From an uncultured Bacilli bacterium (GTDB lineage: Bacteria > Bacillota_I > Bacilli_A > RF39 > UBA660), in contig CALVOU010000011.1 in the NCBI GenBank assembly GCA_944350365.1, positions 1-35,644 of the forward strand: a DNA stretch of 35,644 bases, given 5' to 3'. A program made the translations under genes and the position numbers. The notes below the pieces were generated by a model that searched no databases, was not told the origin of the DNA, and was given only the letters and a program-made list of their open reading frames with translations. Of this stretch, positions 5,315 through 5,455 are shown piece by piece; positions within the stretch are counted from its first letter, which is position 1, and every line of letters begins with the position of its first letter.

Positions 5315-5365
5315 AAAAAAAGGGAGTCAAAAATACTAGCTACTAAAACTAATACTCTTGACTCC
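5315..5365 (-). terminator. attenuator hairpin in the recombinase leader
   Basis: On the minus strand a 17-bp stem with three G-U pairs and a 9-base loop (arms at 5349-5365 and 5323-5339) is followed immediately by seven T residues (5315-5321). It lies between the promoter and the recombinase start. Unless it is disrupted, most transcripts should end here. Confidence 0.75.
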
Positions 5366-5398
5366 TCTTAAATAACAAATATAAATTTTTTTAATCAT
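5336..5398 (-). CDS. 20-aa leader peptide of the recombinase gene
   Basis: A short frame starts at the ATG at 5398 with AAAGGAG 10 bases before it, reads MIKKIYICYLRGVKSISFSS and stops with TAG at 5336. Its codons run through the 5' arm and loop of the terminator hairpin and into the 3' arm. A translating or stalled ribosome would therefore change hairpin formation. This layout is typical of ribosome-mediated attenuators, for example those in front of resistance genes and tet(M) on mobile elements. The peptide resembles no leader that I know. The inference rests on the spacing of promoter, ribosome binding site, frame and hairpin. Confidence 0.6.
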   Translation of the reverse strand: MIKKIYICYLRGVKSISFSS

Positions 5399-5426
5399 AT
5401 AGAAAGTTCTCCTTTATTGGTGTATT

Positions 5427-5455
5427 ACTATATATTTTTATTTATAATTTGTCAA
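5427..5455 (-). promoter_or_regulatory. promoter of leader peptide and recombinase
   Basis: TTGACA (5450-5455) and TATAGT (5427-5432) are separated by exactly 17 bases on the minus strand, a near-consensus housekeeping promoter. It starts transcription about 20-25 bases before the leader's AGGAG. The -35 lies just past the stop codon of the 93-aa gene. Confidence 0.75.

Follow-up and report, generated by a model that had tools for sequence, protein, structure and literature searches.

The locus studied here raises the question of what controls the expression of a large serine recombinase carried by a mobile element. The preliminary description of this DNA listed a promoter, an AAAGGAG site, a 20-codon frame and an overlapping intrinsic terminator in front of the recombinase gene. 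All of these parts are indeed present on the minus strand of the window, that is, the whole stretch of 35,644 nucleotides that was analysed (Table 1). The terminator had been given a length of 17 bp and is found with 19 contiguous pairs. Its hairpin overlaps the second half of the leader frame, whose stop codon lies just past the loop. Our best explanation is that the leader would act as a transcription attenuator, which keeps the recombinase off unless a ribosome closely trails the RNA polymerase. We give this reading, which is drawn from sequence comparison, a probability of about 0.6.

Table 1. Features of the leader and of the mobile element in the window (SD, Shine-Dalgarno site).
Feature	Position	Strand	Remark
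tRNA-Gly (TCC)	5858..5931	-	encoded 3' CCA; element starts directly behind
Two hairpins with T runs (5845-5831, 5819-5797)	5790..5845	-	also seen in homologues
Conserved 93-aa element gene upstream of leader	5464..5745	-	no family
Promoter of leader, TTGACA-17-TATAGT	5427..5455	-	11/12 consensus bases; TTGACA 5455-5450, spacer 17 nt, TATAGT 5432-5427
Conserved CCAAT, presumed transcript 5' end	5416..5420	-	
Leader SD, AAAGGAG	5415-5409	-	
P1 hairpin remnant around leader SD, AAAG-GAGAA-CTTT	5403..5415	-	about -0.2 kcal/mol
Leader frame MIKKIYICYLRGVKSISFSS	5336..5398	-	20 codons; ATG 5398, TAG 5338-5336
Intrinsic terminator hairpin	5323..5365	-	19 contiguous pairs; conserved GGAGTC...GACTCC motif
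Terminator U tract	5315..5321	-	seven T
Recombinase SD AAAAAAGGAG	5303..5312	-	
Large serine recombinase (PF00239, PF07508, PF13408)	3440..5293	-	ATG 5293
MobV (Mob_Pre) relaxase of element	1893..3236	-	

The recombinase contains Resolvase, Recombinase and zinc-ribbon domains. Its surroundings are identified as an integrative mobilizable element, because the alignment with near-identical copies elsewhere extends from about 1885 to the tRNA gene; the far end of the element may lie beyond the contig. The earlier label 'Tn4451-type' fits only the gene content, a serine recombinase plus MobV; the nearest named plasmid and phage proteins to the recombinase are about 35% identical or less. Transcription from the tRNA promoter is probably kept out of the element by the two hairpins next to the tRNA gene. 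Of 18 relatives scanned, 16 have an element that starts immediately after the encoded 3' CCA of a same-strand tRNA gene. These tRNA genes are of the Gly, Met, His, Leu, Thr and Cys types, and the distance from tRNA to recombinase is mostly about 550-630 bp (besides the window, loci L037, L045, L048, L051, L062, L064, L065, L067, L071, L072, L074-L077, L084 and L088). A 2017 review describes insertion within genes as the usual case for mobilizable elements with serine recombinases, and tRNA 3' ends as the typical target of tyrosine integrases (PMC5704250).

Between the tRNA gene and the leader, the 93-aa protein is conserved in 77 of 88 loci. It has no match in Pfam, PHROGs or NCBIfam, and a PDB comparison of its alpha/beta model, a confident one (pLDDT 90), gives no match with an E value of 0.001 or below. 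This protein could be a directionality factor or a regulator. The SD of its gene is located inside a predicted hairpin, ACUAUCC...GGAUGGU, of about -10 kcal/mol (window about 5745-5775), and an SD-hiding hairpin of P1-like design precedes the gene in many relatives.

Are the leader parts more than chance? Promoter matches alone are not significant in such an AT-rich stretch (24 found vs 23 expected), and the hairpin in Table 1 is the one terminator-like site in 3.3 kb, vs 0.7 expected. The fold of the 161-nt leader is more stable than that of shuffled sequences (z -3.2). Chance is ruled out because the parts are conserved. Recombinase relatives are found in 153 of the 193 genomes of the same family of uncultured gut Bacilli (E up to 0.001), and 58 recombinase loci were named in this family. 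We extracted the DNA upstream of 122 distinct recombinase starts and found the terminator with a leader in 93; after removal of near-copies at a 93% cut-off, 77 non-redundant leaders remained. All of them precede related recombinases, and all belong to this one family. Even with the window sequence left out when the model is built, a covariance model detects the window leader with an E value of 8.8e-8. Across homologues, the -10 box mostly lies 6 nt upstream of the conserved CCAAT/CAA. Double-sided changes are observed in 13 of the 17 modelled terminator pairs, in an alignment that is fitted to the model and leans towards the structure (the pair counts for terminator and P1 leave out 12 antisense matches of the palindromic terminator). 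The proposed attenuator, in which a ribosome on the short frame meets an intrinsic terminator, thus appears to be conserved in front of a recombinase family.

The leader is detected in 60 of the 193 genomes of the family by covariance model R2 and in 56 of the 241 genomes of the order by model R1. With 395 class and 295 phylum genomes sampled, none of the matches listed lies outside the window's own family. Some related recombinases have the terminator without a recognisable leader (e.g. L099 and L122), and L137, L139 and L149 have no such leader at all, L137 and L139 being without a terminator as well. Viral contigs contain neither a relative of the recombinase nor the P1 pattern; the sole match of the terminator pattern there is a phage coding sequence hit by chance, and no DNA match to phages is found. 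A T-box, a riboswitch or any other known RNA family was rejected, with the tRNA as the only Rfam match in the window and no score near the gathering threshold for 14 leader loci. A literature search found no paper on a leader in front of a serine recombinase. More than 70 distinct versions of this leader exist, and neither an RNA-family entry nor a paper on them was found, in agreement with the preliminary description, which knew of no such leader.

Several loci depart from the common arrangement. At L192, L194 (L208) and L196, the same leader type precedes a phage-activator-like protein (PHROG 248, weak); at L208 the leader stands behind a tyrosine integrase and has therefore moved to another kind of element. 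A second leader, of a better-kept type, is found in the window's own genome (G000:C14:31109-31257; L003, L170), and the recombinase behind it, related to the window's, carries an in-frame TAA. At L226, a well-kept leader comes right before a relaxase-like coding fragment, which looks like the outcome of a recombinase deletion, and at L198 an extra 91-aa gene lies between leader and recombinase. Separate from the leader finding, two adjacent large genes of 766 and 1010 aa (window 25305-30757) share repeated domains and start with type IV pilin-like signal segments.

What does the short frame contribute? For the ORF-type leaders, the start codon was picked by proper SD spacing, and the ATG inside GAAATGGAGG in group A was treated as spurious. 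The frame is open from this ATG into the terminator in 54 of 55 non-redundant ORF-type leaders, including that of the window, where 9.9 would be expected after shuffling; since the leaders, pairs and frames share descent, such counts show strength and are not independent trials (54/55 is not 55 events). The other two reading frames are open in just 12 and 1 of these leaders. In 51 of the 55 the stop codon is located within the 5' arm or the loop of the hairpin; the frame of L059 ends 11 nt upstream of it, and those of L050, L021 and L095 continue beyond it. All three reading frames are used to enter the conserved terminator motif (29/14/11), so the peptide endings differ with the frame, for example EESVVFRLY, RGVKSIS and KRSQRY. 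Synonymous and non-synonymous changes are equally frequent, with a pN/pS of 1.06 over 56 close pairs. The preliminary description had counted such equality against its proposal; it does speak against a peptide-specific leader and leaves an occupancy-specific one unaffected. Because three frames are used, pN/pS is near 1 and the track is almost always open, the comparison indicates that what selection maintains is a start signal followed by an open track, and not the peptide that it encodes.

In these leaders, the hairpin begins a median of 47 nt (29-60) downstream of the leader AUG. If the footprint size is taken from general knowledge, a ribosome whose A site holds the stop codon masks a median of 55% of the 5' arm (55 leaders), and a ribosome held on the leader AUG reaches the hairpin in none of the 55.

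In most members the leader SD is covered by a hairpin, P1, with a mean energy of -6.3 kcal/mol vs -2.1 kcal/mol in shuffles (mean z -2.4). P1 recurs with different sequences, and double-sided changes occur in 4 of its 5 modelled pairs, with 91.9% of cells paired. No conserved loop or protein-binding motif common to all groups is found in it. It is strong in most homologues and nearly lost in the window's copy, an outlier in that respect; translation of the leader is therefore expected to be stronger there. P1, whose structure is backed by covariation, would lower or time the loading of ribosomes on the leader. It may act as a polymerase pause or a loading delay, and as a candidate pause site it could synchronise the ribosome with the polymerase.

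A different arrangement is found in groups C and E. In group C, the 5' strand of P1, GUUUUAUGUUUUUG, is complementary to the 5' arm of the terminator, CAAAGACAUAAAAC; a pairing of this kind, with another sequence, is also present in group E. The duplex energies reach z -5.1 vs shuffles in these groups, so this strand would pair with the terminator arm as an antiterminator. Weak values aside, ORF-type leaders have no comparable pairing, and the window's own leader has no significant 5' antiterminator (z -0.3). Most C-type leaders lack a frame with a proper SD, and four have both; the hairpin is conserved also where the frame is not. Ribosome control is suggested for the ORF-type leaders, most C-type leaders being without a convincing frame. 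Mapped on the tree of the recombinases, the C label has to change three times, and no fewer than two of these changes are forced. This suggests that the ORF and antiterminator modes have replaced each other, as if they were exchangeable solutions to one task. In a related case of exchange, the recombinase of L037 is 98% identical to that of the window, yet the stretch from promoter to terminator differs.

Together, these observations lead to the following mechanism for the attenuator. Transcription would begin at the conserved promoter. By default, the polymerase would get to the hairpin before a ribosome enters the short frame, and transcription would terminate. A ribosome at or near the stop codon would occupy the 5' arm and the loop, the hairpin would not form and the polymerase would read through into the recombinase gene. 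We infer this release step from the geometry and from the measured behaviour of terminators near stop codons. In E. coli, termination falls from about 90% to under 10% when the stop codon ahead of a terminator is shifted from 28 to 5 bp away from it, and this loss occurs only if the stop codon is reached by translation; terminators stay effective when they are untranslated or lie no more than 100 bp into a coding region (PMC4824070). As the comparison of leaders indicates, the peptide would be irrelevant and only the openness of the track into the hairpin would count. Rather than any one antibiotic or amino acid, the signal would be how ribosome loading and speed balance against the speed of the polymerase. 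The preliminary description expected slowed translation to raise expression. This does not agree with the geometry: a general slowing more likely lowers readthrough than raises it, because a ribosome on the start codon does not reach the terminator, although a ribosome stalled in the late part of the frame could increase readthrough. The simplest reading is termination by default and release by a close ribosome, in which we infer direction, signal and termination alike from sequence. More tentatively, and at somewhat less than even odds, we propose that an undescribed leader-RNA family ties the excision or integration of a whole tRNA-inserted element lineage to transcription-translation coupling, with a content-free frame in one branch, a mutually exclusive antiterminator in the other and repeated switches.

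Other explanations have to be weighed against this one. The preliminary description had likened the leader to drug-responsive resistance leaders. In an attenuator of the erm(K)/mef(E) kind, an antibiotic arrests the ribosome at a site that depends on the peptide, after which an antiterminator forms. The parts are the same here (promoter, SD, short frame and terminator on a mobile element), and antiterminators do exist in groups C and E. However, known macrolide leaders keep the MRLR motif, as in MTASMRLR and MTHSMRLR (PMC4335068), and no MRLR-like motif is found in the present leaders, whose peptide is not conserved and runs in three reading frames. Moreover, the window's leader is without a significant antiterminator, and the gene under control codes for a recombinase and does not confer resistance. 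The likeness is not borne out, and a drug-responsive attenuator is very improbable. Amino-acid attenuation of the trp or his kind was rejected as well: runs of three identical residues occur in only 3 of 55 leaders, no residue is shared by all, and the gene behind the leader is not one for biosynthesis.

It could also be that P1 itself is the sensor, opened or closed by the recombinase, the 93-aa protein, a small RNA or temperature, which would decide whether the leader is translated. The covariation of P1 over the SD and its recurrence with different sequences would fit such a role, as would the similar hairpin in front of the 93-aa gene, so often a neighbour of the recombinase. We nevertheless consider a sensor unlikely, since a shared loop or protein-binding motif is missing across the groups, P1 is almost absent from the window's element with its recombinase gene intact, and P1 may be merely the pause or delay considered above. 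Alternatively, the hairpin might be an ordinary insulating terminator between element genes, and the frame a by-product of an SD-like, AT-rich stretch. Two more hairpins with T runs appear to insulate this very element from the tRNA gene, and group C keeps the hairpin where it has no frame. But the terminator has a dedicated promoter on one side and, on the other, the gene that it would silence, nearly all frames are open with SD and ATG at a fixed spacing, and group C keeps an alternative that would likewise undo the terminator. Simple insulation is therefore distinctly unlikely.

The timing of movement by integrated mobilizable elements is poorly known, above all for those with serine recombinases. 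If the attenuator reading is true, recombinase expression would respond to how tightly ribosome and polymerase are coupled, and in this way to the host's physiological state rather than to a specific signal. With many natural variants in which one thing is constant, the entry of the frame into the hairpin, and the rest is free, the family would provide a natural experiment on how ribosomes override intrinsic terminators.

On this comparison, the nearest known system by mechanism is pyrBI of E. coli, and the nearest by context is tet(M) on Tn916. The pyrBI leader peptide is irrelevant, as for the present leaders, and pyrBI has a longer frame and mapped U-rich pause sites which sense UTP. Its leader frame likewise runs into the terminator, and a ribosome close behind the polymerase blocks the hairpin (PMC4824070). 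Unlike pyrBI, the present leaders have an SD-hiding hairpin before the frame and a recombinase as target. The tet(M) gene, listed as a transcription attenuator (PMC5418344, the listing used for this comparison), also combines a leader frame with a terminator on a Gram-positive mobile element, but it is a resistance gene responding to tetracycline. A short frame and a terminator are shared with erm(K) and mef(E)/mel (msr), and an antiterminator is shared by groups C and E; those macrolide-induced leaders keep the arrest peptide MRLR (PMC4335068), whereas the present peptide is free to change. In bmrB-bmrCD of Bacillus subtilis, an overlapping attenuator is passed only if an upstream frame is translated, and there is no dedicated leader peptide (PMC5418344), but bmrB is an entire regulatory gene and a drug exporter is what is controlled. 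The likeness to Tn4451/TnpX is one of gene content, a single large serine recombinase with a MobV relaxase (PMC5704250); the present element family differs in being inserted immediately after the 3' CCA of many tRNA genes and in having the leader and the conserved 93-aa gene. Within ribosome-coupled attenuators, the recombinase target, the SD-hiding hairpin and the coexisting antiterminator branch thus appear to be new.
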